Positions 9,501 to 32,967 of a DNA stretch of 33,950 nt are shown here, one piece after another. The DNA is taken from the NCBI GenBank assembly GCA_014381555.1, contig JACNLO010000035.1, positions 1-33,950 of the forward strand. The letters run 5' to 3'. The position numbers were made by a program, and so were the translations under genes. Numbering within the stretch: position 1 is the first letter of the stretch; the number at the start of each line of letters is the position of its first letter. Source of the stretch: Planctomycetota bacterium (lineage in GTDB: Bacteria > Planctomycetota > Phycisphaerae > Phycisphaerales > SM1A02). A model generated the notes under the pieces. That model was not told the DNA's origin and did not search any database. It worked only from the letters and a program-made list of their open reading frames with translations.

Positions 9501-11741
9501 ATGAAACTATTCAGTACTGTAACAATCGTGCTTGGGGCAACTACTTTTGCTTCTGGCCAAACCGTCATTATGGATCAGATTGGCTCCATGGATGGCTCTG
9601 ACATAGCTAGTGGTATAACTGGTTGTCAAGATTTTGAATCAGCGTATGATATTTACGATATCGTGACGGCAGATAGTTTTACAGGTAATGGTGATACTAT
9701 TTCCATGGTCGAGATGGTTCTAAATGGCTGGAACGGTTTTACCGATCCTTCGTCAGTCACTGCATACACCGCAAACATCTATACAGATGAAAACGCTGCA
9801 GCAAATTCATTGACCGGAGATATTGCAACTGAGATTATCGATGCTGCAGACGCAACTCAAAGTCCAGATTGGACTGGTGATGGTTTCTTAATCTCGGTCA
9901 ATACTTCGATTACAGATTCCGTTGGTGTCCAACTCATTGGTTTAATCCCGACAAACGAATTTGCAACAGGTGGACAAACTGGGACCCACTCGTCAACTCT
10001 TGGCGATGGATCTGCATGGCAAGCAAATCCAGGCGGTGGCTTCGGCATGCCAGGTAATATGCAACAAACAACTGCAGATGCAGCGTATCGAGTAACAAGT
10101 GATGGTGCTTTTGACCCTTGTAACACGCCACTACCAACCGAGTGCACAAATGATATCGATGGCGATATGTTAGTTTCTGTTTCAGATGTACTCGCAATAA
10201 TTGGTAACTGGGGAGTTTGTGGTGATGGCACCTTCCGTCCCGTTGGCGATGTTGCTCCACTACCAAATGGCGATTGCTGTGTTGGTGTAAACGATGTTCT
10301 TGCTGTCATTGGCTCTTGGGGTGACGACTGTACTCCCACTGGAGGATGTTGTTCTGCTGATGGAGTTTGTACAGATGATATGACTCAAGCAGATTGCGAA
10401 GCTCTTGGCAATTCATATGAAGGCGATGATTCTGTTTGTGCTGATATTATTTGCGGAGTTCCTTATACGGGCTGCCCTGACGGCGCTGATTCCGATTGCG
10501 ACGATTGCTGGGAAGACGGAGATGATTCTTCAACAGATTGCAATTCCGGTCTTAATGGTGATGGAGCAATGGATCCGCTAACAGTCGGCGTGCCCCTTTG
10601 CGGCGAATCATCAGTATATTTCGACCCTAACTACGATAACGGAGATGGTACTTTTGGCACTACATTGCGAGACACGGACTGGTTCTCGTGCCCTGACTTA
10701 AACGTAGGCGGAAGTTTCACGCTTACTGCCGAAACAGAAAACACTACTTTACTCTTTGGTATTGTTGATCTTGACGCAGGTGTATTCGTTGAATACGTTG
10801 TAGTTGAACCAGGCCAAGTTGTAACTCATGAGTATGCGAATTTTGTTCCCGGGAATTATGGCTTCTGGGTTGGCGCTTCTGATTGGAATACTGACTGGAC
10901 ATGCGCAAATGGAGGCAACTATTGGATGCAACTTGACGCAGGTGAGCCAGCTACTGGAGCTTGTTGCTTAAATGACAGTTGTGTTGGCGAGAATTCAATG
11001 GATGAATGTGGTTCTCTTGGTGGAGTCTGGCATTTTGACTTGACTTGTGCTGATGTGAACAACTGCCTTCCAGTATTGGGTGCATGTTGCTTTACCGATA
11101 ACAGTTGCCTAGATAATGTCTCTTCCGATGACTGTTCTTCTTTCGGTGGCATGTTCGCTGGTGAGGACGCCCTCTGTGCAGATGATGTTTGCGGTTCAGT
11201 CGAATACGACCAAATTGGTGGATCAGATGGCAGTGCTATAGGTTCTAATATTACAGGTAGCCAAATATTTGAGGATGCCAATGCTGCATACAATATCGCT
11301 ACTCTTGATAACTTTACTTTTGATGCAGATACTCATGTAACTGCTATTGAAGCGGTTATCAGTGGATGGAATGGTTTTGTTGACATTTCACCAGTCACTA
11401 ATTACACCATTAGTATTTATAGTAGTCCAGATGCTGCAGGTGCTGACTTAGTTGGCGATGTGTACTCGATTGACATTGTTACTCCTAACTTACCAACTTG
11501 GACTGGTGTAGGTGAACTTGTAGGTTTCGATATCGATGTAAATCTTTCTGCTGGCGAATATTACTTTGCGATTATTCCATGGAATGATTTTGGCGTGAAT
11601 GGACAAACTGGAATTACTGATTATGTTGGCGGTCTTGCTGGTGATGGAACTTACTGGCAAGCAAACCCAGCCGGTGGCTTTGGTTTCGGCGCATGGCAAG
11701 AGGGTATTGGTGACGCCGCCTATCGTTTGACTGTCGAATAA
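9501..11741 (+). CDS. Large secreted modular protein with duplicated end domains, dockerin pair and GACC modules
   Basis: This 746-residue protein has a signal peptide (MKLFSTVTIVLGATTFASG) and AAGGAGAG at 9487-9493, 7 nt before the ATG. An N-terminal beta domain (about residues 20-210; DQIGSMDGSDIASG, VEMVLNGWNGFTD, GSAWQANPGGGFGMPG) is repeated at the C-terminus (about 567-746; DQIGGSDGSAIGSN, IEAVISGWNGFVD, GTYWQANPAGGFGFG). Between them lie two dockerin-like repeats (about 218-275), one six-Cys module beginning GGCC (~281), and an Asp/Cys-rich stretch resembling thrombospondin-type calcium loops (CPDGADSDCDDCWEDGDDSS). A beta domain (~340-480) and two further GACC modules (~486 and ~527) complete the middle. 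It is probably an extracellular structural or adhesive protein. No catalytic motif was seen. A strong terminator follows. Confidence 0.85.
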   Translation: MKLFSTVTIVLGATTFASGQTVIMDQIGSMDGSDIASGITGCQDFESAYDIYDIVTADSFTGNGDTISMVEMVLNGWNGFTDPSSVTAYTANIYTDENAAANSLTGDIATEIIDAADATQSPDWTGDGFLISVNTSITDSVGVQLIGLIPTNEFATGGQTGTHSSTLGDGSAWQANPGGGFGMPGNMQQTTADAAYRVTSDGAFDPCNTPLPTECTNDIDGDMLVSVSDVLAIIGNWGVCGDGTFRPVGDVAPLPNGDCCVGVNDVLAVIGSWGDDCTPTGGCCSADGVCTDDMTQADCEALGNSYEGDDSVCADIICGVPYTGCPDGADSDCDDCWEDGDDSSTDCNSGLNGDGAMDPLTVGVPLCGESSVYFDPNYDNGDGTFGTTLRDTDWFSCPDLNVGGSFTLTAETENTTLLFGIVDLDAGVFVEYVVVEPGQVVTHEYANFVPGNYGFWVGASDWNTDWTCANGGNYWMQLDAGEPATGACCLNDSCVGENSMDECGSLGGVWHFDLTCADVNNCLPVLGACCFTDNSCLDNVSSDDCSSFGGMFAGEDALCADDVCGSVEYDQIGGSDGSAIGSNITGSQIFEDANAAYNIATLDNFTFDADTHVTAIEAVISGWNGFVDISPVTNYTISIYSSPDAAGADLVGDVYSIDIVTPNLPTWTGVGELVGFDIDVNLSAGEYYFAIIPWNDFGVNGQTGITDYVGGLAGDGTYWQANPAGGFGFGAWQEGIGDAAYRLTVE

Positions 11742-19038: not shown

Positions 19039-20949
19039 ATGAGCAAGGCAACCACCAAAAACGGAACCGCGCAAACAAAGCCGCAAACTATCGACGAACA
19101 TATCGTCGAAATCGTTTGTGACTCTGGTGAAGGCGCCCAAAAAGCAGGGACTCTTTTTGCAACGATTAGTGCAAAAATGGGTAACGGAATTTGGACAGTT
19201 GAAATTATTCCTGCAGAAATTAAGCCTCCTGCTCGTTCCCGTGAAGGAGCGAGTGGAAACCGCATTCGCGTTGGAAGCAAAGAAATGACCAATGCCGGGG
19301 ATGAAGCTAACCTTGTTGTTGCTTTAAACGAACAAGTTTTATATGGCCGGCTTTCCCAAGACGCCTATGGTCCTGAAACAACAATCCTACTTGAGAGCGT
19401 TTGGGCAACTGACCCAGATGCAAATATTCGTGATGCATACACCGCAGCGCTTGCTGACTTTTCTGCTCGTGGCTTGAACGTTATCGAGCTTCCAATCCAT
19501 GAAGCTTGCTCAGAACTCATGACGGATCCACGATTAGGCAAAAACATCTTTGTACTTGGCATTCTTTGTTACATTTATCAACGAGATACTGCTCTTGCTA
19601 AACAAGAGATTGCAAACATCTTTGCCAAGAAAGGCGAAAAAGTCATTTCGACCAACCATGCATTACTTGATGCAGGCGTCGAATTTGCTATTAAACATAT
19701 CCCATTCACCTACACAATTCCAAACATGGACGTTACAGACGACCAAGTAGTTATGAATGGAAATGTAGCAGTTGCGCTTGGAGTAATGGCTTCTGGAATG
19801 GACATGGTTTCCATGTATCCAATTACCCCCGCAACTTCTGCTTCACATTACCTTGCGGGCGTGTTTGATCAAGCAGGTGGATTCGTTCACCAAGCCGAAG
19901 ATGAAATTGCAGCGATTGGCTTTGCGTTAGGAGCATCGTATGCTGGCAAGACTGCATGTACTATTACATCTGGTCCTGGTATGGCTCTTAAAACCGAATT
20001 TATCGGCTTGGCTGTAATGTCTGAGATTCCGATTGTTATCGTTAATGTTCAACGCGGCGGGCCGTCAACTGGTCTCCCAACCAAAGTAGAACAGGGAGAC
20101 TTATTAAATGCAATGTATGCTGCTACTGGCGATGCACCAAAAATCATTATGGCTCCTGCCACAATCGAAGAGAGCTTTTATAGCATCATCACCGCAAGAC
20201 AACTTGCAGAGGCATTCAGAACACCAGTTATTGTTCTAACCGATGCGAACCTCGCTACAGGGCAAACACTCTACAAACGTCCGGTTACCAAAGAAGATTG
20301 GCTTGCTCCGCCAATTGACCAAAGCGATTGGCATGCAGGGACTCCTGCTTACGCTTGGAACGAAGAAACAGGCATTTCACCAAGACCTATTCCCGGCCAA
20401 AAAGGTGGCGAGTATGTTCTAACTGGACTTGCCCACACACCAGAGAGCCATGTCGCCTACAACCCACAAGCAAACCAAGTGGGTTGTGATATGCGAAGTA
20501 GAAAAATAGCTGCACTTGAACAAACCTTCACCCCTCCAAAGGTTCATGGTGATGAATCGGGAGATTTACTTATCGTTGGTTGGGGATCAACGCTTGGAGC
20601 AATCGAAGAAGCAGTTGACCGTGCAAGAGCGAAAGGTCATAAGGTCTCTTCAGTTCACCTACGTTACCTTTCGCCAATGGAGGTTGGTCTTGAAGAGATA
20701 TTCGCAAAGTTCAAGAAGGTGATGACGGTAGAAATCAATTACAGCGACCCTATGGGAAGTGTTGCACATCCAAGACCATCGCAACTTGCGATGATGTTAC
20801 GAGCACATTTGATGCAGGAAGTTGATTTTTGGTCCATAGTTCCTGGACAGCCACTTGGTCCAAATCAAATTGTCGGAGTCATCGAAGACAAACTTGGAAC
20901 AACCAAACCATCTAAAAAGAAAAACGAAAAAGCAGGAGCGGGTAAGTAA
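19039..20949 (+). CDS. korA: 2-oxoacid:ferredoxin oxidoreductase, fused gamma-alpha subunit (KorA type)
   Basis: With KorB this subunit oxidatively decarboxylates a 2-oxoacid (probably 2-oxoglutarate) to the acyl-CoA, reducing ferredoxin. Residues about 12-195 form the gamma domain (EIVCDSGEGAQKAGTLFATI, then AGDEANLVVALNEQVL). Residues about 230 onward form the alpha domain: YPITPAT (260-266), HQAEDEIAAIGFALGASYAG, TSGPGMALKTEFIGLAV and RGGPSTGLPTKVEQGDL, typical KorA signatures. A domain-II-like stretch follows (DLLIVGWGSTLGAIEEAV, HLRYLSPM). The Lys-rich tail (KKKNEKAGAGK) is unusual. Length (636) fits fused KorA proteins. It opens the operon and is 2 nt upstream of korB. Pyruvate or another 2-oxoacid cannot be excluded without binding-site comparison. 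Confidence 0.93.
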   Translation: MSKATTKNGTAQTKPQTIDEHIVEIVCDSGEGAQKAGTLFATISAKMGNGIWTVEIIPAEIKPPARSREGASGNRIRVGSKEMTNAGDEANLVVALNEQVLYGRLSQDAYGPETTILLESVWATDPDANIRDAYTAALADFSARGLNVIELPIHEACSELMTDPRLGKNIFVLGILCYIYQRDTALAKQEIANIFAKKGEKVISTNHALLDAGVEFAIKHIPFTYTIPNMDVTDDQVVMNGNVAVALGVMASGMDMVSMYPITPATSASHYLAGVFDQAGGFVHQAEDEIAAIGFALGASYAGKTACTITSGPGMALKTEFIGLAVMSEIPIVIVNVQRGGPSTGLPTKVEQGDLLNAMYAATGDAPKIIMAPATIEESFYSIITARQLAEAFRTPVIVLTDANLATGQTLYKRPVTKEDWLAPPIDQSDWHAGTPAYAWNEETGISPRPIPGQKGGEYVLTGLAHTPESHVAYNPQANQVGCDMRSRKIAALEQTFTPPKVHGDESGDLLIVGWGSTLGAIEEAVDRARAKGHKVSSVHLRYLSPMEVGLEEIFAKFKKVMTVEINYSDPMGSVAHPRPSQLAMMLRAHLMQEVDFWSIVPGQPLGPNQIVGVIEDKLGTTKPSKKKNEKAGAGK

Positions 20950-20951
20950 AT

Positions 20952-21905
20952 ATGTTTGGATTAAAACAAGATTGGTCACTTGATGTATTGCCTAGGTATT
21001 TTACACTTGATGACTACGAATCATCAGTGCCACGATGGTGTGCTGGATGTGGAGACCACGGCATCCTTACTACGGTTCAACGAATTTGCAGGGACAAACA
21101 ACTCCTTCCTGAGAAAACTGTTTGTGTTTCTGGTATTGGTTGCTCTAGCCGTTTTCCGCACTACATGTCAACGTACGGTTTTCATGGTTTGCACGGACGT
21201 GCGTTTCCAGTTGCATGTGGAATTAAATCACGACGCCCAGACCTAGACGTTTGGGTTGCAACTGGCGATGGCGATTGTTGTTCGATTGGCGCGGGTCATT
21301 GGGTGCATGCTGTTAGGTACAACATGGATATGGTTGCAATTCTTTTTGACAATAATGTCTACGCATTGACAAAGAAACAAAGTTCACCTACAAGCCAAAT
21401 TGGACAATCAACAAACACCCACCCTAAAGGGGCACCTCTTCCTCCGCTCAATCCTTCAACAACTACTCTTTCTATCACAAATTGTTCGTTCGTTGCTCAA
21501 ACGGTTGACTGGAATCCTGTGCACATGCACGAGACCTTAAAAGCAGCGCATGAACATAAAGGGTTTAGTTTTGTACGAATTTTTCAGCGGTGCCCTGTCT
21601 TTTCTGAAGAATGTTTTGCAGAAGCACAAACTGATCCGGACTTGGTGCAACTTGTAGAACACGATAATGGATTACAGGTATCCGAATCCGGTACTCGAAT
21701 CTACAAAAACCGTCGCACCCACGACCCTTCCGATTTGGTTCAAGCAATGGCTGTTTCAAACCAGACTGATGTACTTCCAATTGGTTTGCTTTACCAAAAT
21801 GAGACTATGCCTATTTACAACGAATATAGTTCTGTCGGTATTAACTCAACGCCTGAAGACAAAATAAACGCACTGAATCATCAACTCGACCGCTTCGCAA
21901 TCTAA
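20952..21905 (+). CDS. korB: 2-oxoacid:ferredoxin oxidoreductase, beta subunit (KorB type)
   Basis: This TPP- and [4Fe-4S]-binding subunit partners KorA. In the 317-residue product, RWCAGCGDHGIL (C30, C33) and SGIGCSSRFPHY supply cluster cysteines, and FQRCPVF near residue 216 supplies the likely fourth. The TPP/Mg site is TGDGDCCSIG (G105-D108) followed by LFDNNVYALTKKQSSPTS, as in KorB. HGRAFPVACGIKSRRPD is also family-typical. The gene starts 2 nt after korA and ends 10 nt before the PFOR-derived gene. KorAB carries just this one cluster, so it needs an external ferredoxin. The next gene encodes a protein with a C-terminal ferredoxin domain, an attractive candidate acceptor. Confidence 0.95.
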   Translation: MFGLKQDWSLDVLPRYFTLDDYESSVPRWCAGCGDHGILTTVQRICRDKQLLPEKTVCVSGIGCSSRFPHYMSTYGFHGLHGRAFPVACGIKSRRPDLDVWVATGDGDCCSIGAGHWVHAVRYNMDMVAILFDNNVYALTKKQSSPTSQIGQSTNTHPKGAPLPPLNPSTTTLSITNCSFVAQTVDWNPVHMHETLKAAHEHKGFSFVRIFQRCPVFSEECFAEAQTDPDLVQLVEHDNGLQVSESGTRIYKNRRTHDPSDLVQAMAVSNQTDVLPIGLLYQNETMPIYNEYSSVGINSTPEDKINALNHQLDRFAI

Positions 21906-21915
21906 GGATTTACCT

Positions 21916-24276
21916 ATGTCATCTCCTGATGTTATTGATCATGAAATGGAAGAAACACAACTCATAGACCTAGAAGGTCTGCATTTCCCTCCTGATGAGG
22001 GCTTGCCTTCCGGACACACATTACCAGACGTACTACGAGATGCTCGTAGGTTTCATGCTGGAGACCCCTCAGTTGTATCTAGTATGAGTACGGACCTGTT
22101 GCCAGCGGTCATGCACACACTTCGTCGCCCCGAACTTATACGTACCGATTACCCCTTGGTACTTCTCCCTTGTGGGAAAGTTCAGCCACTCGTTGAGTTC
22201 TTTATTGAAATTATCGCGAAAATTGAGAATTCCAAAGTTCTCTCAGACAATCTTGTTCGTGTTGAGCGCCAAGTTCGAGAAGGTCTTAAGACAGTCGCTG
22301 ATGCTGCAAAAGTAATTGGCTCCGCTGGTTCAAAAGTTGGAGATATGCTTGCTCTCAACGAAAAAGCTGACCACGACTTCAGAACAAAAGGCGCAGAGTT
22401 AGTACAGTCAATTCCAAAGGGCACGATTCTTGTTCCATGTACCAGCGTTGCTGGCCCAGCTGTTGCACTACACATTATTGAGGCGCAAACAAGGGGAAAT
22501 CACCTTCGAGATAGCGTTATCAAAATGCGAGACGCACTCAAGAGTATGAACAGCCGCGAGCCAGCCGTCGAAGCCAGTGGCATTGATTCAAGTAAACTCC
22601 AAACAGTCCTAGGGAAAACTACATCGGGTAGTGTGCCTATGGACGAAAGTAGAACAAAACGAGTTAAAGCAACTATTAAAACCATCGAGGCATGGCTAAC
22701 AAACAGCGATTCTCCTCTTTATGTTGTCACTTCCTCTTTTGCTGATGACATTTCTGTTCCACACTCTGCTACAAAAGTAAAAGCTGGTGATTCTCTTTGC
22801 AACAAGGCAATTGAGACATTTGATGAACTTGCTCAGCGCTATGCTCAACTATTTGGCGCAATGCGTACCGCTCGATTGGAACTTGCAAATGCTTACGAGA
22901 GCCCCCGTCATGACCACCTTCTTGAAAATTTTTGTAGAAAATGTTTTTCTGATGCTGAGTTTGACCTTATGCCAAAAGTTGTAGCAGTTGGTTCTGTACA
23001 AGACGGACTTGCAAACATGGCTTCGCTTTCAACTATTTTGCGTTCAGCAAGACCTGTCACATTGCTTTTGCTTGGAGACGATCTTGCAACTCTAGATCAT
23101 GAAAGAATCGAACTAGCATATCTAGCAGTTGCACACCGAAAATGTTTTGCAACGCAAGTTTCAATTGCACATCCATCCCATTTAGTAGATTCAATTAAAA
23201 GCGGAATTGATTCAGTTCGTCCAACTTTGCACACAATAGCGAGCGAAGACACTCATCCACTTGGCGCTTGGCTTGAAGGCAATGCGGCTATAGAGGGGCG
23301 AGCATGTCCACTTCTTAGGTACGACCCTTCGCAGGGTTTAACATGGGCGGAGCGATTTGACCTTGTAGATAACCCTCAGACAGAACATGATTGGCCCATT
23401 TGGACTGGCGAAATTGACAACCAAAAACTTGAACTATCTTTTACTTTTGCACACTGTGCAATGTTAACGACCAATTTGCAACAATACTTTATGCAACTTC
23501 CTGATGGCGTTACATCCAGTGATTTGTTGCCAATTGAACAGTGGCTCCATCTTTCACTTGATGAGTCTGCGACGGTGCTTCCATACCTATGGGCAGCAGA
23601 TGCAGATGGAGCAATTCATAAGTTGGTCGTCGCAAGAGTTGTTACTGATGTTTGCAGAGAGCGGCTTGATTACTGGAATACTCTGCAAGAATTAGCCGGT
23701 ATCGATAATTCTTATGTTGAACAAGCAATTCAAGAAGAACGTGAGATATTAGATACAGCATTTGCAACTGAACGTGAGACACTTGCAAGTAAACATGCAA
23801 CTGAAATTGAATCCCTTAGAACAACTGCATCACAAGTTGCAATGCAACAACTTGCAGAGGTGCTCCTCGGCGGAGGTGGCGGATTTGTGAATCCACTTGT
23901 TTCTGCGTCGGCTCCAACGATTGCTCCAGTTGCGAACGGTACTATTGCAACTCCAACCGAAGCAGGTGAAGAAGTTGCAACTGAGGAGTCTGCAACTACA
24001 GAGCCCGAAGATACTGGCTCAGGCGACCTAGGCGAAGCATGGATTGACAGCCCGCTTTGCACAACTTGCAATGATTGTATGGATGTCAATGCACAGGTAT
24101 TTGTTTACAACGAAGATAAACAAGCGTACATTAAAGATGCTTCTGCGGGAACGTATGAAGAAATGGTTCGGGCTGCTGAGGCATGTCCTGCACGTTGTAT
24201 TCATCCTGGCGGGCCGCTTAACCCAAGCGAACCAAATCTCGATGAACTTAAAAAGCGTGCGGCTGATTTTATTTAA
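21916..24276 (+). CDS. PFOR-derived protein with coiled coil and C-terminal ferredoxin domain
   Basis: This 786-residue cytosolic protein is not a family I can name. Residues about 352-480 resemble the C-terminal TPP-domain region of pyruvate:ferredoxin oxidoreductase (PFOR). MASLSTILRSARPVTLLLLG aligns with the segment after the PFOR GDGW motif, and ACPLLRYDPS corresponds to the PFOR WPLxRYxP motif. The TPP glycines are lost (GSVQDG instead of GDGWxxD). After a linker containing YWNTLQELAG there is a charged coiled coil (about 600-650; EREILDTAFATERETLASKH) and a Pro/Thr/Glu-rich linker. A single-cluster ferredoxin domain ends the protein: CTTCNDC (C715, C718, C721) and ACPARC (C757, C761). 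The N-terminal ~350 residues are unrecognised. It is related to the protein at 25137-28703 over the PFOR-like and coiled-coil parts. Its place between korB and rnfB suggests an electron-transfer or coupling subunit. Confidence 0.75.
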   Translation: MSSPDVIDHEMEETQLIDLEGLHFPPDEGLPSGHTLPDVLRDARRFHAGDPSVVSSMSTDLLPAVMHTLRRPELIRTDYPLVLLPCGKVQPLVEFFIEIIAKIENSKVLSDNLVRVERQVREGLKTVADAAKVIGSAGSKVGDMLALNEKADHDFRTKGAELVQSIPKGTILVPCTSVAGPAVALHIIEAQTRGNHLRDSVIKMRDALKSMNSREPAVEASGIDSSKLQTVLGKTTSGSVPMDESRTKRVKATIKTIEAWLTNSDSPLYVVTSSFADDISVPHSATKVKAGDSLCNKAIETFDELAQRYAQLFGAMRTARLELANAYESPRHDHLLENFCRKCFSDAEFDLMPKVVAVGSVQDGLANMASLSTILRSARPVTLLLLGDDLATLDHERIELAYLAVAHRKCFATQVSIAHPSHLVDSIKSGIDSVRPTLHTIASEDTHPLGAWLEGNAAIEGRACPLLRYDPSQGLTWAERFDLVDNPQTEHDWPIWTGEIDNQKLELSFTFAHCAMLTTNLQQYFMQLPDGVTSSDLLPIEQWLHLSLDESATVLPYLWAADADGAIHKLVVARVVTDVCRERLDYWNTLQELAGIDNSYVEQAIQEEREILDTAFATERETLASKHATEIESLRTTASQVAMQQLAEVLLGGGGGFVNPLVSASAPTIAPVANGTIATPTEAGEEVATEESATTEPEDTGSGDLGEAWIDSPLCTTCNDCMDVNAQVFVYNEDKQAYIKDASAGTYEEMVRAAEACPARCIHPGGPLNPSEPNLDELKKRAADFI

Positions 24277-24279
24277 GGA
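24275..24279 (+). promoter_or_regulatory. Ribosome-binding site supporting a TTG start for rnfB
   Basis: AAGGA overlaps the stop codon of the preceding gene and lies 6 nt before TTG at 24286. The first in-frame ATG (24316) would remove half of the N-terminal membrane helix that RnfB proteins have, so TTG is preferred. Confidence 0.7.
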
Positions 24280-24285
24280 TTTGTT

Positions 24286-25140
24286 TTGGATACAACCCTT
24301 ACAGCCGTTCTCATCATGTCATCAATCGGTACCTTTTTTGGTATTTGTTTAGCGGTTGCACATAAATACTTAAAAGTAGAAGAAGATCCCCGCCTTGATG
24401 TTGTTGAAGAAATGTTGCCCGGAACAAATTGCGGCGCTTGTGGAGAGCCCGGATGTCGCGCTTTTTCTGAAGCATTAGTTGGCGGCATCAAAGAACCTTG
24501 CCAGTGCACGGTTGGTAGCCCAGATGACATCGAGATAATTGCTTCGTTTCTTGGAGTAGTTGCAGGTGAACAAGACAAAGTCGTTGCACGCCTTCATTGC
24601 GCAGGTGGGCTTGGCCTTGCAAGACAAATTGCAGAATACGAGGGCTATTCAAATTGCCGGGCGGCACACCTTGTAGGTGGTGGTGGCAAAGGCTGCAGTT
24701 GGGGATGCCTCGGGTTAGATGATTGTATGGTCGCCTGCGACTTTGATGCAATACACATGAATGAACAGCGCCTTCCAGTTGTAAGCGTCGAAAATTGCAC
24801 TGCGTGTAATGATTGTGTTGAAGCGTGTCCTCGCGATCTCTTTGATCTTATGCCTTTATCACAAAAATTGATAGTCCAATGCAACGCGCCACTAGAAGGT
24901 GATGATGCTTACGCCGTCTGCAGTGTTTGTTGCGATGGTTGCCAGCGATGCGCAGCTGACGGAGATGGAAAAATAACCATGCAAAATAATTTACCAGTCG
25001 TTGATTGGAGTGATGGCAATATCGCTGCCTCTCCAAAAGCAACTTGGCGGTGCCCCACTGGCGCAATTACTTGGGTTGAAGATGGACAATTCATTCAGCC
25101 AACTGTTGAGTATTCCACTCGCAAGGAGGTAGCAGTATGA
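24286..25140 (+). CDS. rnfB: Electron transport complex subunit RnfB
   Basis: RnfB is the ferredoxin-accepting, multi-cluster subunit of the Rnf complex. The 284-residue product has an N-terminal membrane helix (about 4-24; LTAVLIMSSIGTFFGICLAV) and the Fes domain LPGTNCGACGEPGC (C49, C52, C57) closed by C72 or C74. [4Fe-4S] motifs follow in CSWGCLGLDDCMVAC and CTACNDCVEACP. A Cys-rich C-terminal part (CSVCCDGCQRC, then WRCPTGAI) extends it, as in longer RnfB forms. Initiation is at TTG with a good AAGGA site. The stop overlaps the next gene by 4 nt (ATGA). RnfB is separated from rnfCDGEA by the large PFOR-like gene, an unusual insertion in the cluster. Electrons would pass from ferredoxin (or the ferredoxin domain of the upstream protein) via RnfB toward RnfC and NAD+. 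Confidence 0.95.
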   Translation: MDTTLTAVLIMSSIGTFFGICLAVAHKYLKVEEDPRLDVVEEMLPGTNCGACGEPGCRAFSEALVGGIKEPCQCTVGSPDDIEIIASFLGVVAGEQDKVVARLHCAGGLGLARQIAEYEGYSNCRAAHLVGGGGKGCSWGCLGLDDCMVACDFDAIHMNEQRLPVVSVENCTACNDCVEACPRDLFDLMPLSQKLIVQCNAPLEGDDAYAVCSVCCDGCQRCAADGDGKITMQNNLPVVDWSDGNIAASPKATWRCPTGAITWVEDGQFIQPTVEYSTRKEVAV

Positions 25141-28100
25141 ATGCCTTTACAACAATAACGAATCGGCTATTTGATAAGGTTTTTCGCAGGGACAATGAAA
25201 CAATAGTCTCTGGTGAACCGTGCACTGTTGACCCACTTACTGCTGTTGCTATTGTTGAATCAAAACACCTTGGCTCAACTGCATTCTGCGGACCATTGCC
25301 CGAATCCATTTCAAAAGAAACCTTCTCTGCAACAACTGATGAAGAAAGCACACTGCAAGAAGTCCACACTGCGCTCCTATCACCAAACCCTCGAAGTGCA
25401 TTTGCCAGCGCGATGGGTCTCTCGTTAACTGGGCAACGAGCAACGGTCTTTTTAACAGCAACGGATCTTCACGCTTGTCAGGATTTGCTCATCGAGTGTG
25501 TGCGACAACATCTTCCAATTGTTATTCATGTTGCTCTATGTGATCATTGTCTTAATGTCACCTACGATGCTTACCTAGCTTCTTCAAACACTGGCTGCAT
25601 GCAATTTCTTGCCTCTACAACGCAAACCGCTGTGGACTACACAATGTTTGCAAGGAAAGTGGCAGAAGAAGCCTTAATCCCAGCAATCGTCGCTGTCGAC
25701 ACATTCAAACCGACACTCGCCGAGTTACCATCGGAAGAACTTTCTACTGCTTGGATTAGTCAAGCAGATACATTTATTGCTTCTCCTAACGATGCCCAGC
25801 GGTTGATTTTCGGCGAGCAACGAAGGCAAGTTCCAGATAGATGGAATCTTGAACGACCTCTTTTGCTTTCTCCGATTCATAAACATTCAAGTGCAACTTT
25901 TAGCGCAACAAGAGCACCCTTCTACGATTCGCAGTTGCCAAAAATTTTAGATAAATCGCAAACGGATTGGGAAAAACTTTCTGGAAGAACCTGCCAGTCA
26001 CTTCAACAAACAACTAACGCGGACTCGGAAACGTTATATGTTTGCCAAGGTGCCATGTATAACATTGCATCTGGAGTTGATAAATTAAACATTGTATCTG
26101 TGCATTGCATGCGTCCTTTTCCAGTTGGCGAACTTTACAATGCAGCATCAAACTGCAAACAGGTTATTGTGCTTGACACAACTAGTGTCACTCTTTGCGG
26201 CGACTCACAATTTGCTACTGAAGTAAAAGCTACTCTTGCCTCTTTGCCTTGCATTATCTCCGTTGTTCGATGTTTGGATGCTCAAGTAGAAGACATTGCA
26301 GCCCTTGACAAAGTTGCTAATGAGAGCGGAACTATTCCCTCAATGCTTGGCGTCTCTTTCATTCAAAAGAATACACCCTATCCAAAACAAACTTCTGCCT
26401 TGCAGGAAATTGCAAGAGCGTATCCTGACATTCCCTCTCACTCTCTATCGAGCAAGAAGGAAATCACGCTTAATCAATCGCAGCAAGTTTCAAAGTCCCC
26501 CCTGCTTGACTCGAACGCTTGGCAAGATAATTTTGGAAACTTGCCTCAGTTTTGGGATCATATCGGCACGCTGTATAACGACGGCAATGAACTGCTGCTT
26601 ACTCCAAGTCCACTTCTAAGCACAAACTCTGTGCCACCTCTGACTGCAGCGCTGCGCAACGTGCAATCTGATGCGCAAGTGCTCCCTATCTTTGATCCAC
26701 TCCACTGCGACGGAGACCCTTCGTTGTGGATGTCATGTCCTGATGGTTCTGTTTCTGCTTTGGTACTATCACCTAAAGCACTTCTTGACTCTGGCATTGC
26801 AAAGGCAAGAGGTGCTTCCTCTGGTCTTCGCTCCATTTCTGGTGCGCTTTGCAAACAAATGATCGCCGTTGCAAAAACAAATATGCAACCAACACTTGGC
26901 GACTTATTAGAACTCTCTTTTGCGGAACTTGACATAGCCCAAGAGCGGCTCGCTTCTTTGCAAGAAGGGCTAGATGCTGTTGTGCAAGCAGTTGGCATTA
27001 TTCCAATTGCAAAGACACCCACTTTCTTTGACAAAGATGGGGCTAATGAGTTCTTAATTTTGAGTATCGACCCTGATGCTTGCAAATCACCTGAACTCGT
27101 TATTGCTTCTTGTGCAGGTCATGGTCTCGAACCAACCGCTCGCACAGACGAAAGTATTCAACTCGCTCGTGAACTGCGAGATTTGATTTTTGAACTGCCT
27201 GATACAAGTGGAAATACAATTCACCGCATCGCGCAGTTTGATGGGATGAAACTCCCTGCAATTATGCTCAGCCGCCATTGCCATCATGCCATGGCAGCAG
27301 GAGACGAATCAGAGGTTGGCTCGGGGGCAAAACTTGTCCTAAGACAAGCACTTGGCCTTGCCGAGTATGCATTGCAACCGCACCTGCAAGCTTTATTGAC
27401 AGAAATCGATGGACTAAAAGAATCACTGCAAAGTGGCGCGACAAGTTTGCTTATTGACGCTATTCCTACTAGCAACTTAGATGCAATTGCAACGGCATTT
27501 GAAGAGGTTGGACAGGATGATGTAGACTTGGCAACTGTACTTTCAGCAATGCAAGTCGATGATGATTCCCCAACTGTTGATGGAGAAACAGTTCGCGTGA
27601 TGGCCTCATTAGTAACAGAATTAGACAACATAGCCAACCGATTAACTCACTCTTCGGGAGGTCTTGGTAGAGCTCGCAGTGGCTTGACAATCTCAGGAAG
27701 CGCAACAGGTAATTGGGCAGCGTTGTTTCCATGGAACCCATTCTCGTCACCTGTTGCAGTTAATACAACGCACACTGGCTGTAGCATGTCGGTGGGTTTA
27801 TTTGAAGGACAGATGCAGAGTGTACTTACGGACTTAAACACGATTCGAAAGGCAAAACTTGTATTAGAAAATCCAATTAAGGCAGCCCATCCTGAGCAAG
27901 AAATTGAAGCGCACTCACTTGAAGAATTAACGAATGAAGAACGAGCACTTTGCCCACCACTTATCATTGTTGCGGATGCTGCTTCGATGCACCGCAATTC
28001 GCTTTCTGAACTTGCTTGGATATTAGATAGCGACCTTCCAGTTAAGGTCCTTGTACTTGGTGATGGCACAGAAGACGTTGCATTATTTGGGTTAACTTCC

Positions 28101-28703
28101 TGCAGCGCATTTATTGCGCAATGTTCACCAGCAAATCCAGATCACTTTGCTTCTTCTTTGATTGGCGCTCTTCAATACAAAGGCCCCGCACTGGTTAGCG
28201 TTTACGCTCCAAGCCCAAAACAACACGGCTTTGCAGTGGAAGACCTTATGATTCAGGCAACGCTTGCAGTAGATTGCAGGGTCTGTCCACTCTTTACCTA
28301 CAACCCAAGTGAAGAAGGTGTGTTTGGCACTTGTATCGACATAACAGCAAACCCCAAATTTACTTCTTTGCTAGCCCAAGAGGATTTAACTCCAGCAAAA
28401 TGGGCTTCTTCCCAACAACGGTTTACTGACGATTTTGATGGAGACGAAGTGATACTCGCTCGTTGGAAAATGTTACAAGAACTTTCAGGTGTAATCACCC
28501 CGTTTGATGATTTAGCAAGAGCAGAACAAGATGAAGCGGCTCGCCAACATTCACTAGACCTTGAAGCACTAGCAAGGGACTATCAAGTAAAAATGGCAAC
28601 TCTTAAGGAGCAGTACCATTCAGAAGCAGTGGCATCTGTAACAAGCGGATTGATGCAGATGGCTTCCAAAGCTCAACCGAAAAAACCGGAGGATGCTACC
28701 TGA
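25137..28703 (+). CDS. Full-length PFOR-like protein lacking catalytic motifs (pseudo-PFOR)
   Basis: The 1188-residue length matches single-chain PFOR, and the domain order can be followed. There is a domain-I-like start (DPLTAVAIVESKHLGSTAFCG; MGLSLTGQRATVFLTATDL). A domain-II/III-like block comes next (VSVHCMRPFPVGELYN, KQVIVLDTT), then a ferredoxin-like region, and a TPP-domain-like end (LAWILDSDLPVKVLVLGDG; GPALVSVYAPSPKQHG; VCPLFTYNPSE). Key residues are gone. YPITPSS is absent. Both ferredoxin Cys motifs keep only the first and last Cys (C524 and C534; C649 and C659). The TPP motif GDGWxxD is ADAASMH at 946-952, and no NTGGQ follows. A charged helical tail ends it. This points to a non-catalytic, structural or regulatory role. 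It overlaps rnfB by 4 nt and rnfC by 1 nt, so it is made with Rnf. The PFOR alignment was done by eye. Confidence 0.75.
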   Translation: MNAFTTITNRLFDKVFRRDNETIVSGEPCTVDPLTAVAIVESKHLGSTAFCGPLPESISKETFSATTDEESTLQEVHTALLSPNPRSAFASAMGLSLTGQRATVFLTATDLHACQDLLIECVRQHLPIVIHVALCDHCLNVTYDAYLASSNTGCMQFLASTTQTAVDYTMFARKVAEEALIPAIVAVDTFKPTLAELPSEELSTAWISQADTFIASPNDAQRLIFGEQRRQVPDRWNLERPLLLSPIHKHSSATFSATRAPFYDSQLPKILDKSQTDWEKLSGRTCQSLQQTTNADSETLYVCQGAMYNIASGVDKLNIVSVHCMRPFPVGELYNAASNCKQVIVLDTTSVTLCGDSQFATEVKATLASLPCIISVVRCLDAQVEDIAALDKVANESGTIPSMLGVSFIQKNTPYPKQTSALQEIARAYPDIPSHSLSSKKEITLNQSQQVSKSPLLDSNAWQDNFGNLPQFWDHIGTLYNDGNELLLTPSPLLSTNSVPPLTAALRNVQSDAQVLPIFDPLHCDGDPSLWMSCPDGSVSALVLSPKALLDSGIAKARGASSGLRSISGALCKQMIAVAKTNMQPTLGDLLELSFAELDIAQERLASLQEGLDAVVQAVGIIPIAKTPTFFDKDGANEFLILSIDPDACKSPELVIASCAGHGLEPTARTDESIQLARELRDLIFELPDTSGNTIHRIAQFDGMKLPAIMLSRHCHHAMAAGDESEVGSGAKLVLRQALGLAEYALQPHLQALLTEIDGLKESLQSGATSLLIDAIPTSNLDAIATAFEEVGQDDVDLATVLSAMQVDDDSPTVDGETVRVMASLVTELDNIANRLTHSSGGLGRARSGLTISGSATGNWAALFPWNPFSSPVAVNTTHTGCSMSVGLFEGQMQSVLTDLNTIRKAKLVLENPIKAAHPEQEIEAHSLEELTNEERALCPPLIIVADAASMHRNSLSELAWILDSDLPVKVLVLGDGTEDVALFGLTSCSAFIAQCSPANPDHFASSLIGALQYKGPALVSVYAPSPKQHGFAVEDLMIQATLAVDCRVCPLFTYNPSEEGVFGTCIDITANPKFTSLLAQEDLTPAKWASSQQRFTDDFDGDEVILARWKMLQELSGVITPFDDLARAEQDEAARQHSLDLEALARDYQVKMATLKEQYHSEAVASVTSGLMQMASKAQPKKPEDAT

Positions 28704-30040
28704 TGAGCGTTGCTGAACTTGTGGGCACATTTAGAAATGGTGTGCATCCACATGAAAATAAGGAGCAAACTGAGAACTTCCCAATTGCCAGAATGGCTTT
28801 TGGCAAGATTTTCACTTTGCCACTTTCACAGCATCTTGGAGCACCATCAAAATCAATTGTAGAAGTTGGACAAACAGTTTTTCGAGGGCAATTGTTAGCA
28901 GAAGCAGGTGGTTATGTTTCCGCGAATTTGCATTCACCAGTTGATGGCAAGGTAATTACAATTGGACCACGAAGGCATCCCCGCGGTGACCTTGCCACTT
29001 GTATTGAACTTGAAGCAGACCCATTTTCAACACAAACTATTAACGCATCACCGCAAAATGATCCAATGAATATGTCAACGGATGACTTCGTTGCGAGTAT
29101 TCAGGATTCTGGGCTCGTTGGCCTTGGAGGTGCTGCCTTTCCAACCCACGTTAAGTATAAATTGCCAGAGGGCAAAACTTGTGAACATCTTGCAATCAAT
29201 GGCTGCGAATGCGAACCATACCTTACATGCGACCACCGAACGATGGTTGAGCGTCCAGAGGCAGTTGTTCGCGGCATAACAATCGCAGCAAAAATATTAG
29301 GCGCAAAGAAAACAAGTGTAGGTATAGAAAAAAATAAACCAGATGCAATTGCAGCGATGCAAGAAGCAACAAAGAACTTGGATGATATTGAAGTTTACCC
29401 TCTCAAAGTTAAATATCCGCAAGGCGCTGAAAAGATGCTCATCAAGGCAATCTATGGAATTGAAGTTCCTGCTGGAAAACTACCTCTTGATGTTGGCGTA
29501 GTCGTAAACAACGTCGCAACGATGACGCAGTTTGCTGATTGGTTTGACGAAGGGCTACCTTTGATAGAACGTGTGGTTACAGTTGCAGGAACAGCAATTG
29601 CAAGACCTGCAAATTTAATTATTCCTGTTGGCACTTCGGTTCGCGAAGTTCTTGATTTTTGCGGTTTAGATATGAACACGCAACAGGTAATCATGGGCGG
29701 ACCAATGATGGGGATGCCCCTAAGTTCTCTTGACGTTCCTGTTCTTAAAGGAACAAGTGGGCTACTCGCGTTTACTGAAGCTCCCAAGGGTCATCAAAAT
29801 ACACTTGCCTGCATCAGTTGCGGGCAGTGCTTAGAAGCATGCGGGTACTTTCTAAACCCTGCTCGACTTGCTAAGTTAGCCCAAGCAAGGCGCTGGGACG
29901 AACTCGATGATTTTTACGTAAACGATTGCATGGAATGCGGCGCATGTAGTTGGGTTTGCCCCTCCTCTATTCCAATCGTGCAACTAATTCGCACTGGTAA
30001 AGGCGCGCTTCGTGAACTGAAAGCGAACCAACAAGCATGA
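28703..30040 (+). CDS. rnfC: Electron transport complex subunit RnfC
   Basis: RnfC is the peripheral NADH/NAD+ (FMN and FeS) subunit of Rnf, related to complex I NuoF. The 445-residue product has the N-terminal biotinyl-like hammerhead (GGYVSANLHSPVDGKV), the FMN/NADH-site GLGGAAFPTHVKYKLP and the family block INGCECEPYLTCDHRTMVE. Two [4Fe-4S] motifs lie near the C-terminus: CISCGQCLEAC (about residue 370) and CMECGACSWVCP (about 414). Length is normal and no extended C-terminal repeat region like that in E. coli RsxC is present. It shares one base with the pseudo-PFOR stop (TGATG) and overlaps rnfD by 4 nt. Confidence 0.97.
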   Translation: MSVAELVGTFRNGVHPHENKEQTENFPIARMAFGKIFTLPLSQHLGAPSKSIVEVGQTVFRGQLLAEAGGYVSANLHSPVDGKVITIGPRRHPRGDLATCIELEADPFSTQTINASPQNDPMNMSTDDFVASIQDSGLVGLGGAAFPTHVKYKLPEGKTCEHLAINGCECEPYLTCDHRTMVERPEAVVRGITIAAKILGAKKTSVGIEKNKPDAIAAMQEATKNLDDIEVYPLKVKYPQGAEKMLIKAIYGIEVPAGKLPLDVGVVVNNVATMTQFADWFDEGLPLIERVVTVAGTAIARPANLIIPVGTSVREVLDFCGLDMNTQQVIMGGPMMGMPLSSLDVPVLKGTSGLLAFTEAPKGHQNTLACISCGQCLEACGYFLNPARLAKLAQARRWDELDDFYVNDCMECGACSWVCPSSIPIVQLIRTGKGALRELKANQQA

Positions 30041-31077
30041 TTAAGAAACCTATGCAACTTCTTCTTCAAACATCGCCTTTTTTGCGGCGTGGCATTACGA
30101 CCCCGCGTTTGATGAGCGAAGTAGTCATTGCAACCATTCCCGTCATTTTTGCAGCATGCTGGTACTTTGGCCTTAGTGCTCTGCTTCTAATCTTTGCATC
30201 AGTCGCTGGAGCGATGCTCACGGAATGGTTTTTTACCCCAAAGAAGTCAAGCACGCAACCTAGCAATTCGCTACTTGATGGTAGTGGTTTACTCACAGGC
30301 ATCTTACTTGGGCTTACCCTCCCTCCAGGCATGGCAATGTGGATGGCATTCCTTGGCGGAGTTGTTGGGATTTCCATAGGCAAACTCGTGATGGGCGGTC
30401 TTGGACAAAACATGTTTAACCCAGCGCTTGTTGGGCGTGCATTTTTGCAAGCGGCATTTCCAACTGCAATCACAACTTGGAACCCTCCTGCCACATCCCC
30501 CGGAAGTTTAGAATCTTTTACTGCAATCCGTGAAAGCAATCTTGCAGCCCCATTCATGCAGTCAAGTACTGATGCAGTCACTACTGCTTCACCACTTGGC
30601 TTAATGAAGTTTGAACATGAACCAACACCTTGGTTTGATTTATTCATTGGAAATACAGCAGGTTCACTCGGAGAAACATGCGCCATCGTAATCATTGTGA
30701 TGGGTGTAATCATGGCAATACGGCGTGACTTCGATTGGCGAATTCCTGTTTCGATTTTGCTTGCAGTTGCTGCTTTCTCTGCTATTCCTTGGTTCATAAA
30801 ACCCGAACTTTACCCTACACCTTTGGGAATGCTTCTTTCAGGTGGCTTGCTCTTTGGTGCTGTTTATATGGCTACCGATCCTGTGACCTCCCCAGTTACA
30901 CCAAAGGGTGCATGGATTTTCGGCGCTTCTATTGGCTTGCTTGTTGTATTGATTCGTTTATGGGGCGGACTGCCAGAAGGTGTGATGTACGCGATTTTGC
31001 TGATGAACGCAGCAACGCCTCTTATTGAACGCATCGCGCAGCCGCGCGTCTTTGGTCGAGGAAGGAGCGCAGTATGA
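30037..31077 (+). CDS. rnfD: Electron transport complex subunit RnfD
   Basis: RnfD is an integral membrane subunit carrying covalent FMN on a threonine, part of the ion-pumping path. The 346-residue product shows the opening LLQTSPFLRRGITTPRLMS, multiple membrane helices, and LLDGSGLLTGILLGLTLPPG and GGLGQNMFNPALVGRAFLQA, both family hallmarks. The FMN-attachment region is DAVTTASPLG (T182 or T183 as the acceptor). MATDPVTSPVTPKG near residue 280 is also conserved. It overlaps rnfC and rnfG by 4 nt each. ApbE encoded at the end of the operon would flavinylate it. Confidence 0.97.
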   Translation: MIKKPMQLLLQTSPFLRRGITTPRLMSEVVIATIPVIFAACWYFGLSALLLIFASVAGAMLTEWFFTPKKSSTQPSNSLLDGSGLLTGILLGLTLPPGMAMWMAFLGGVVGISIGKLVMGGLGQNMFNPALVGRAFLQAAFPTAITTWNPPATSPGSLESFTAIRESNLAAPFMQSSTDAVTTASPLGLMKFEHEPTPWFDLFIGNTAGSLGETCAIVIIVMGVIMAIRRDFDWRIPVSILLAVAAFSAIPWFIKPELYPTPLGMLLSGGLLFGAVYMATDPVTSPVTPKGAWIFGASIGLLVVLIRLWGGLPEGVMYAILLMNAATPLIERIAQPRVFGRGRSAV

Positions 31078-31781
31078 AAGAAGTAGAACTCACTTGTTCC
31101 GCTACTGCCAAGGAACCAAGTGCACTTCGACTTGTGCTTACACTTGGTATTGCTGGACTTATTTCTGGGTTCATCTTGGTTTTTGTCTATCAATATACTG
31201 CTCCAATTATTGCTGCAAACAAAGCGAAGGCGCTTCGCGAAGCGGTCTTCAAAGTTGTTCCAAACTCCGCTTACTTGCAAGAACTCCATTACAAAGACGG
31301 CGAGTTAGTCAGAGTCGCAGATGAGTCTGGTGGCGAAAAGGTACAGCCGGGCGAAATTCTTTATGGTGCGTATGGTCCAGATAGTGGGTTCATGGGCTAC
31401 GCAATTGTTGGCTCAGGCAACGGTTTTCAAGACACTATCCGTCTTTTGTATGGTTATGACCCAGTGCAGCGAGCAGTCCTTGGCATGCACATCCTTGACA
31501 GCAAGGAAACACCTGGGTTGGGAGATAAGATTTACAAAGACGCTGATTTTGTTTCCCAATTTAGTCCCGTTTTAGTGGACCCAAGTGTCGAACTTGTCAA
31601 AGGTGGCCGCAAAGCCGACAATCAAATTGACGCGATTACCGGTGCAACTATCTCATCCGATGCAGTTGTAAAAATTATTAATAATGCGCACCAAAAATGG
31701 GATGACAAAACAAAGGGAGCACCACCTAAATTCGTTCCACCTCCTCCTCCAAAAGAAAAAGAGAAGGACGGCAACGAATGA
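31074..31781 (+). CDS. rnfG: Electron transport complex subunit RnfG
   Basis: RnfG has one N-terminal membrane helix (about residues 20-42, LTLGIAGLISGFILVFVYQY) and a periplasmic FMN-binding domain. In the 235-residue product the flavinylation motif is DAITGATISSDAV, with T192 as the likely FMN-linked threonine. The block HILDSKETPGLGDKIY is strongly conserved in RnfG/NqrC. The C-terminus has a Pro run and a Lys/Glu-rich tail (PPPPPKEKEKDGNE), which may lie in the periplasm. It overlaps its neighbours by 4 nt on both sides. Confidence 0.96.
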   Translation: MKEVELTCSATAKEPSALRLVLTLGIAGLISGFILVFVYQYTAPIIAANKAKALREAVFKVVPNSAYLQELHYKDGELVRVADESGGEKVQPGEILYGAYGPDSGFMGYAIVGSGNGFQDTIRLLYGYDPVQRAVLGMHILDSKETPGLGDKIYKDADFVSQFSPVLVDPSVELVKGGRKADNQIDAITGATISSDAVVKIINNAHQKWDDKTKGAPPKFVPPPPPKEKEKDGNE

Positions 31782-32395
31782 GCGCAACGAAGAGTTATTC
31801 TGAAGAGTTTCTCAAAGGAATTTGGAAGGAAAACCCAGTCTTTATCCAAGTGCTTGGCATGTGTCCAATGCTTGCAGTTACAAACACCGCAGTGAACGCA
31901 ATTGCAATGGGTGTTGCGACTGCTTTCGTGCTTCTTGGTTCGAGTATTCTTGTTTCGTTACTTCGCAAGGTGATCGCCAAGCCCGTACGAATTAGTACGT
32001 ATATTGTCATCATCGCAACATTTGTAACGGTAGCAGATTACTCAATCGAGGCGTTCTCCCCTGCTCTTCACCGTGAACTTGGCGCATTTATTGCACTCAT
32101 TGTTGTGAATTGTTTAATTCTTGGAAGGCAAGAAGCATATTCGAGTAAAAACACCGTTGGATTTGCAATCGTAGATGCCTCTGGCATGGCAATTGGTTTT
32201 GCGTTTGCATTATTCTGTTTAGGAGCAACTAGAGAAATTCTTGGTTTTGGTACTTTCTTTGGCTCCCCTATTTTCGGTGAACACTTTGAACCATGGGTCA
32301 TCATGGCATTGCCGCCAGGCGGCTTCTTAATGCTTGGTTTTATCCTTCTCTTCTTCAACTGGCTTGAGCAACGCAAGAAAGGAGCAGCAGTATGA
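31778..32395 (+). CDS. rnfE: Electron transport complex subunit RnfE
   Basis: RnfE is a six-helix membrane subunit that, with RnfA, forms the transmembrane FeS/ion path. The 205-residue product opens with FLKGIWKENPVFIQVLGMCP, the family signature, including the Cys thought to ligate the intramembrane cluster. It continues with TNTAVNAIAMGVATAFVLLG, then IVVNCLILGRQEAYSSKN containing the second conserved Cys. Length is normal. It overlaps rnfG and rnfA by 4 nt each. Confidence 0.97.
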   Translation: MSATKSYSEEFLKGIWKENPVFIQVLGMCPMLAVTNTAVNAIAMGVATAFVLLGSSILVSLLRKVIAKPVRISTYIVIIATFVTVADYSIEAFSPALHRELGAFIALIVVNCLILGRQEAYSSKNTVGFAIVDASGMAIGFAFALFCLGATREILGFGTFFGSPIFGEHFEPWVIMALPPGGFLMLGFILLFFNWLEQRKKGAAV

Positions 32396-32967
32396 GCGAT
32401 CTTGCTTGGATTTTCATAAGCGCACTGCTTGTAAATAACTTTACGTTGTATTACTTCCTTGGTCTTTGCCCATTCTTTGGTGTCTCAAGCAAAGTAAGCG
32501 TCGCTGTTCGACTTGGACTTGCCACTATTTTTGTCATGATTATTACTTCGCTTGCTGCAACGTTCCTTACAACGTTTGTCTTGCCGCACGCTCCTTACTT
32601 AAAATTAATTAGTTTTATTATTGTTATTGCTAGCACCGTGCAATTCGTTGAGATGGTTATTAAGAAACTCAGCCCTACGTTATTTAGAGCGATGGGTATT
32701 TTCTTGCCTCTTATTACAACAAACTGCGCAATTCTCTTTTTGGCACTTACCCAAACAAGTAAGGAATACACGCTTGTTCAAGGGCTTGTGTTTGCTCTTG
32801 GCGCAGGTGGCGGCTTTACAATTGCACTTGCCTTAATGGCTGGGCTACGCGAAGAAGGCGAACTATCTAAGGTTCCTAACATCGTAAAAGGAACTGCGCT
32901 TAACATGATTATTGCGGGCTTGCTCTCACTTGCCTTTATGGGGTTTGCTGGTTTGTTTAGTGCGTAA
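32392..32967 (+). CDS. rnfA: Electron transport complex subunit RnfA
   Basis: RnfA is the inverted-topology partner of RnfE. The 191-residue product (family about 190-195) has SALLVNNFTLYYFLGLCPFF with the conserved Cys, a chain of six hydrophobic helices, PLITTNCAILFLALTQTSKE with the second Cys, and a Gly/Ala-rich C-terminal helix. It overlaps rnfE by 4 nt, and its stop shares one base with the ATG of the apbE-like gene (TAATG). Confidence 0.97.
   Translation: MSDLAWIFISALLVNNFTLYYFLGLCPFFGVSSKVSVAVRLGLATIFVMIITSLAATFLTTFVLPHAPYLKLISFIIVIASTVQFVEMVIKKLSPTLFRAMGIFLPLITTNCAILFLALTQTSKEYTLVQGLVFALGAGGGFTIALALMAGLREEGELSKVPNIVKGTALNMIIAGLLSLAFMGFAGLFSA

Follow-up and report, generated by a model that had tools for sequence, protein, structure and literature searches.

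The protein encoded at positions 25137..28703 (+ strand) of the Phycisphaerales contig analyzed here is a descendant of a fused pyruvate:ferredoxin oxidoreductase (PFOR), and its sequence supports the view that it is catalytically dead, since the motifs expected for thiamine, the proximal cluster and the substrate are all gone. We refer to this 1188-residue PFOR homologue, delineated from its open reading frame, Pfam matches, profile searches, AlphaFold fold and alignments, as psPFOR. Rather than being confined to the genome in which it was noticed, it is one member of a conserved family of pseudoenzymes that is present in three phyla. We infer, with somewhat better than even confidence, that psPFOR is a non-catalytic adaptor coupling the 2-oxoacid:ferredoxin oxidoreductase KorAB to the Rnf pump, with which it would associate, and that it descended from an active PFOR occupying the slot between rnfB and rnfC. 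To our knowledge, such a subunit is absent from the known Rnf structures.

The window, by which we mean the whole stretch of 33,950 nucleotides, is one complete contig of a 2.0 Mb genome. The operon lies on its + strand and begins with korA (19039..20949; TIGR03710, 4.8e-152), which encodes the alpha subunit and fused gamma domain of a 2-oxoacid:ferredoxin oxidoreductase of the 2-oxoglutarate type, followed by korB (20952..21905; TIGR02177, 2.2e-66), encoding the beta subunit, and by the gene for a 786-residue protein, hereafter X (21916..24276), with a pseudo-beta PFOR-like domain, whose best Foldseek matches are PFORs, and a C-terminal ferredoxin (Fer4_13). The psPFOR gene is preceded by rnfB (24286..25140; Pfam FeS, 5.2e-12; TIGR01944 above cut-off), coding for the electron-input subunit of Rnf, and followed by rnfC (28703..30040; Pfam RnfC_N and Complex1_51K), coding for the NAD(H) subunit, then by rnfD (30037..31077; PF03116, 9.2e-103), rnfG (31074..31781; FMN_bind, 1.5e-15), rnfE (31778..32395; Rnf-Nqr, 1.1e-60) and rnfA (32392..32967; Rnf-Nqr, 3.2e-51). 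Pfam matches and gene order indicate that this full set of rnfB, C, D, G, E and A genes adjoining psPFOR is intact.

The 1188 codons of psPFOR contain zero internal stops. Its start codon, preceded by AAGGAGG, shares bases with the rnfB stop (ATGA, 25137-25140), and at the other end its stop codon runs into the ATG of rnfC (TGATG, 28701-28705), in agreement with the intact frame and translational coupling to both neighbors proposed in the first-pass annotation. The open frame, these overlaps and the existence of 47 full-length relatives rule out a frameshifted gene or artefact, and the 66-75% DNA identity of the upstream flank to congeners rules out a misassembled or foreign contig. Elsewhere in the window, segments 8536-8775 and ~10139-10390 match each other at 66%; they correspond to a domain repeated in two large ORFs lacking a Pfam match, and the genus contains many more stretches like them.

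Single-sequence Pfam searches with psPFOR return modest matches to POR_N (3.3e-7) and PFOR_II (1.5e-5). Searched against the PDB, a profile of 45 family sequences retrieves the PFORs of Moorella thermoacetica (6cin, E=1.8e-63) and Desulfovibrio africanus (1b0p, 3.5e-56), with aligned segments in domains I-II, III, V and VI. The AlphaFold model (mean pLDDT 79.2, pTM 0.80) comprises both the alpha-type and the beta-type thiamine-enzyme fold. The alpha-like domains I-II (residues 26-408; 25212..26360, +), to which the POR_N and PFOR_II matches and the alignment also point, superimpose on the oxalate oxidoreductase alpha subunit (5c4i_A) with a VIA Z of 35.0 and an rmsd of 2.4, and the beta-like domain VI (residues 699-1115; 27231..28481, +), likewise delimited by alignment, superimposes on the beta subunit of the same type of enzyme (5exe_C) with a VIA Z of 25.0 and an rmsd of 2.6. 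A long C-terminal helix (residues 1122-1178; 28500..28670, +) completes the model. When a whole PFOR is compared with it, 776 residues align with an rmsd of 23, and the domains appear to be placed differently from those of PFOR, at least in the model.

The family profile and the two superpositions, with alpha- and beta-type folds both recovered by structure prediction, bear out the PFOR homology put forward by the first-pass annotation, and the motif equivalents it could read are present as GPALVSVY, SDLPVKVLVLGD and CPLFTYNPS. Its statement that PFOR length and domain order are retained stands in part: homology extends across the domains, but domain III, present in relatives of ~1540 residues, is almost missing from the window copy, and because of this loss the PFOR-like length is partly coincidence. 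Compared with 6cin and 1b0p, psPFOR thus has the same ancestry and the same domain series, I, II, (III), V and VI, of which domain III has all but disappeared from the window copy, but differs by the absence of thiamine, substrate and proximal-cluster residues, by the additional C-terminal long helix and, in Phycisphaerae, by the loss of the ferredoxin clusters.

Neither PITPS nor GDGxxxD stands in its expected place in any of 48 aligned rows, comprising the 47 full-length relatives and the window copy. A ten-row alignment that includes active relatives further shows that the catalytic glutamate is replaced in psPFOR (EGEHAA becoming xPRxAL or xARxAL), as are NTGGQ and the proximal cluster cysteines (CxGC, TGCSS and the Cys before HG), the latter being kept in the active relatives. 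In the window copy, other residues stand in place of PITPSS and the Glu, and CxGC, GDGxxxD and NTGGQ are absent, which upholds the earlier claim that YPITPSS, the TPP motif and NTGGQ were lost. The proposal of a PFOR-derived pseudoenzyme inside an rnf cluster is likewise sustained, with every catalytic motif missing and the gene kept in the rnf operon. An ordinary active PFOR is ruled out for psPFOR; a canonical PFOR with its motifs kept is encoded elsewhere in the genome (contig C74).

Both 4Fe-4S motifs of the window copy are also degenerate, a feature absent from the first-pass description. The first (CDGDPSLWMSCP, residues 524-535; 26706..26741, +), which reads CxxCxxCxxxCP in gammaproteobacterial relatives, has C524-D527-L530-C534 at the cluster positions, and the second, located by alignment (CKSPELVIASCA, residues 649-660; 27081..27116, +), has C649-P652-V655-C659. 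The inner cysteines of both motifs are lost in all eight planctomycete psPFORs, window included, whereas both CxxCxxCxxxC motifs are kept in 40/40 full-length gammaproteobacterial psPFORs and in a frame-broken psPFOR from Eisenbacteria. Having lost domain III and both ferredoxin clusters, the window copy is among the most reduced members of the family.

No relative was found when genome contigs were scanned with the window protein (P0001) alone as the query; 60 loci were recovered once the query was a profile built from P0001 and four relatives. These are distributed among Phycisphaerae, Thiotrichaceae, Chromatiaceae, Sedimenticolaceae, other Gammaproteobacteria and one Eisenbacteria MAG, the gammaproteobacterial hosts being sulfur oxidizers. 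The complete order korA-korB-X-rnfB-psPFOR-rnfC-D-G-E-A is found at 22 loci from three phyla, and some further loci are interrupted by contig ends. KorAB and X are not adjacent to psPFOR in several Chromatiaceae and in giant sulfur bacteria; in genomes where psPFOR lies away from KorA and X, an X orthologue (8/8) and KorA (8/8) are encoded all the same. The giant sulfur bacteria also have psPFOR apart from rnfC, so the linkage is not universal. Separately, one psPFOR (G051; L024, 10462-13683) is split over several frames, through sequence error or real damage.

Active-looking PFORs occupy the same slot elsewhere. In other planctomycete classes, the operon reads korA-korB-Y-rnfB-[PFOR]-rnfC-D-G-E-A, with an active-looking long PFOR that has PITPST, GEHAA, C[MSA]GCG, GDGxxxD, NTGGQ and two ferredoxin motifs and, in most cases, an additional C-terminal ferredoxin similar to that of X. 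Some of the Gammaproteobacteria that encode psPFOR, namely Thiocystis violacea, a Thiotrichaceae MAG and a Chromatiaceae MAG, have a further rnf operon in which rnfB and rnfC flank a long PFOR; this PFOR, read over its whole length in the first two, looks active there. In a Pseudomonadales MAG (L035, 19300-24635), a KorAB-X-psPFOR operon is followed in tandem by rnfB and an active-looking PFOR. These Rnf-linked active long PFORs (L088-L099, L119-L125, L146 and L147), for which we found no family name, have the rnfB-rnfC slot, the clade, the ferredoxin motif context and the C-terminal region in common with psPFOR but keep every catalytic motif, and most have, unlike psPFOR, a ferredoxin domain at the C terminus.

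In a full-length tree, psPFOR groups with the Rnf-linked active PFORs in a single clade (support, 99) and is itself monophyletic (support, 100), with a long stem of 1.48; the unlinked long PFORs and canonical PFORs fall outside; the row C_L109, which was in the wrong reading frame, is excluded from our trees. The simplest reading is that a PFOR-Rnf operon was duplicated and that catalysis was then lost in one copy. That the family extends across three phyla and has active relatives that share its slot strengthens the finding and explains its origin. Protein Y, of ~340 residues, takes the place of X between korB and rnfB in active-PFOR operons (L119-L124); it looks like a beta domain that has degenerated, is very short and contains no cluster, and its branch in the beta-domain tree is too long for placement. 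Another active-looking long PFOR, of ~1600 residues or encoded by two genes, occurs in planctomycetes outside these rnf operons (L112-L118, L126 and L127).

The partner enzyme looks active: KorA keeps YPITPATS and KorB keeps CAGCG and GDGD, motifs that suggest that KorB is catalytically competent. Their closest solved relative is the 2-oxoglutarate:ferredoxin oxidoreductase of Magnetococcus marinus (best PDB match 6n2n_A for KorA, 1.7e-79; 6n2n_B for KorB, 1.1e-52), a comparison that concerns these partners of psPFOR rather than psPFOR itself. A role of KorAB in standing in for a missing 2-oxoglutarate dehydrogenase is ruled out in this species, as SucA is present (contig C25); SucA is present in the genus, and G000 is its one genome that yielded a canonical PFOR. 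The C-terminal single-cluster ferredoxin domain of X (residues 709-765; 24040..24210, +) is defined by Pfam, by Cys 715, 718, 721 and 757, invariant in 28/28 members, and by a Foldseek match to ferredoxin I (1fxr; TMt 0.84, rmsd 0.9). Identity between the window proteins and their relatives is ~28-39% for psPFOR and X and ~53-70% for KorAB and RnfB/C/D, and such faster evolution of psPFOR and X is the expectation for non-catalytic scaffold parts.

That a PFOR is encoded between the genes for the input (RnfB) and output (RnfC) subunits suggests contact with the pump. As an adaptor, psPFOR would hold KorAB and the ferredoxin-bearing X next to RnfB, and electrons released by oxidation of 2-oxoglutarate would enter Rnf and be passed on at RnfC to NAD+ while ions are exported, or would flow the opposite way. 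The duplicated operon would then obtain catalysis from KorAB, a ferredoxin domain from X and shape from psPFOR, with clusters in addition in Gammaproteobacteria, where psPFOR probably also conducts electrons via its two [4Fe-4S] clusters. In Phycisphaerae, the C-terminal ferredoxin of X would be the only cluster-bearing connector remaining besides KorB and RnfB. We infer the docking of psPFOR, the direction of electron flow and the division of roles between psPFOR and X against the observed background of PFOR ancestry, active-site loss, operon conservation, KorAB and X co-occurrence and active relatives in the slot. Rnf-type pumps are known to accommodate subunits that carry no cofactor, and two of these set a precedent within the same pump family: NqrA of Na+-NQR, which is related to RnfC, and the cytoplasmic RnfH of Azotobacter Rnf1 (PMC12174285). 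Unlike psPFOR, they bear no sign of PFOR descent, and the likeness claims no sequence relation.

Several points weigh against the adaptor role, among them the lack of such a subunit in the known Rnf structures, the non-universal linkage of psPFOR to rnfC and the different placement of its domains in the model. The long branch of the window copy (2.2-2.8 changes per column) and its loss of domain III would also fit weakened constraint. Together with the absence of both clusters, they could mean that psPFOR is a relic in this species, lost ahead of the rest of an operon on its way out. The gene cluster was detected in 1/13 genomes of the genus, and psPFOR in 0/12 congeners. In congener G002, blastn of locus L135 against the window reveals that positions 19252..32931 are missing as one piece: on a 6.2 kb contig, the empty site (G002:C78, 5183-6249) joins the first 71 korA codons to the near-end of rnfA onward, such that ~13.7 kb is gone as one block and a korA stub is left. 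This deletion and the failure to detect psPFOR in the 12 congeners imply that the operon is dispensable in the genus; its loss as a unit is also in keeping with the adaptor reading. Against a relic, however, stand the 1188-codon open frame with its overlapping start and stop, the intact and well conserved KorAB and Rnf, and the retention by P0001 of 105/150 family-invariant columns versus 131/451 moderately conserved ones; moreover, cluster loss is common to all planctomycete psPFORs, whose frames are open. We regard a relic as unlikely and agree with the first-pass annotation that psPFOR is probably a selected protein rather than a decaying gene, being kept as a protein in the rnf operon. Decay in this species, which we hold to be improbable, would leave the psPFOR family unaffected.

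Despite the loss of the PFOR catalytic motifs, conservation reaches at least 95% in some 150 columns of the psPFOR family (e.g. PSPxxHGF and LQELAGxxTPF), as might be expected if psPFOR had acquired a new chemical or sensing role, for instance binding CoA, a 2-oxoacid or a nucleotide in a remodeled pocket and regulating KorAB or Rnf. However, we noticed no new metal or nucleotide motif in psPFOR, and many of its conserved residues are Gly, Pro or hydrophobic, as is typical of structure; such a role seems to us unlikely as well. Quite improbable, in our estimate, is that psPFOR is mainly an electron wire whose two [4Fe-4S] clusters link KorAB and X to RnfB, with the PFOR body as a mere carrier. 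The clusters retained throughout the gammaproteobacterial proteins and in the Eisenbacteria one would suit a wire, but the planctomycetes have kept the gene and the operon after losing the inner cysteines.

Rnf is commonly seen as fed by soluble ferredoxin. A PFOR, alive or dead, encoded between RnfB and RnfC suggests instead a hard-wired connection of the pump to a carbon enzyme in planctomycetes and sulfur-oxidizing bacteria. The broader proposition, that some bacteria fix a 2-oxoacid:ferredoxin oxidoreductase permanently to Rnf and that in one branch a dead PFOR docks KorAB instead, has in our view slightly less than an even chance; if true, 2-oxoglutarate oxidation would be coupled directly to NAD+ reduction and to ion pumping, with no free ferredoxin in between. 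The family further provides an evolutionary series, from an active PFOR in the slot to a dead one with clusters, a dead one without clusters and finally operon loss. The purpose of the dead enzyme is testable in the culturable Thiocystis violacea DSM 208, Thiorhodococcus minor DSM 11518 and T. mannitoliphagus DSM 18266.

We did not find this gene arrangement, a dead PFOR or a PFOR within an rnf operon described in the open-licence papers searched, where korAB, rnf and PFOR of sulfur oxidizers are given as separate items (PMC6315080, PMC4914600, PMC6593406). In the Riftia symbiont, a 'PFOR-like' gene responds jointly with dimeric korAB (PMC11636981). The psPFOR family bears on this unexplained expression of 'PFOR-like' and korAB(3) genes, the former being a candidate member only. 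Finally, upstream of korA at several gammaproteobacterial loci, we observed a ~430-residue RnfC/NuoF-related protein with the motif CGQCPxCKTGT (L049, 1700-3340; L055, 1900-3490; L082, 1500-3300), which is perhaps another NAD(H) module.
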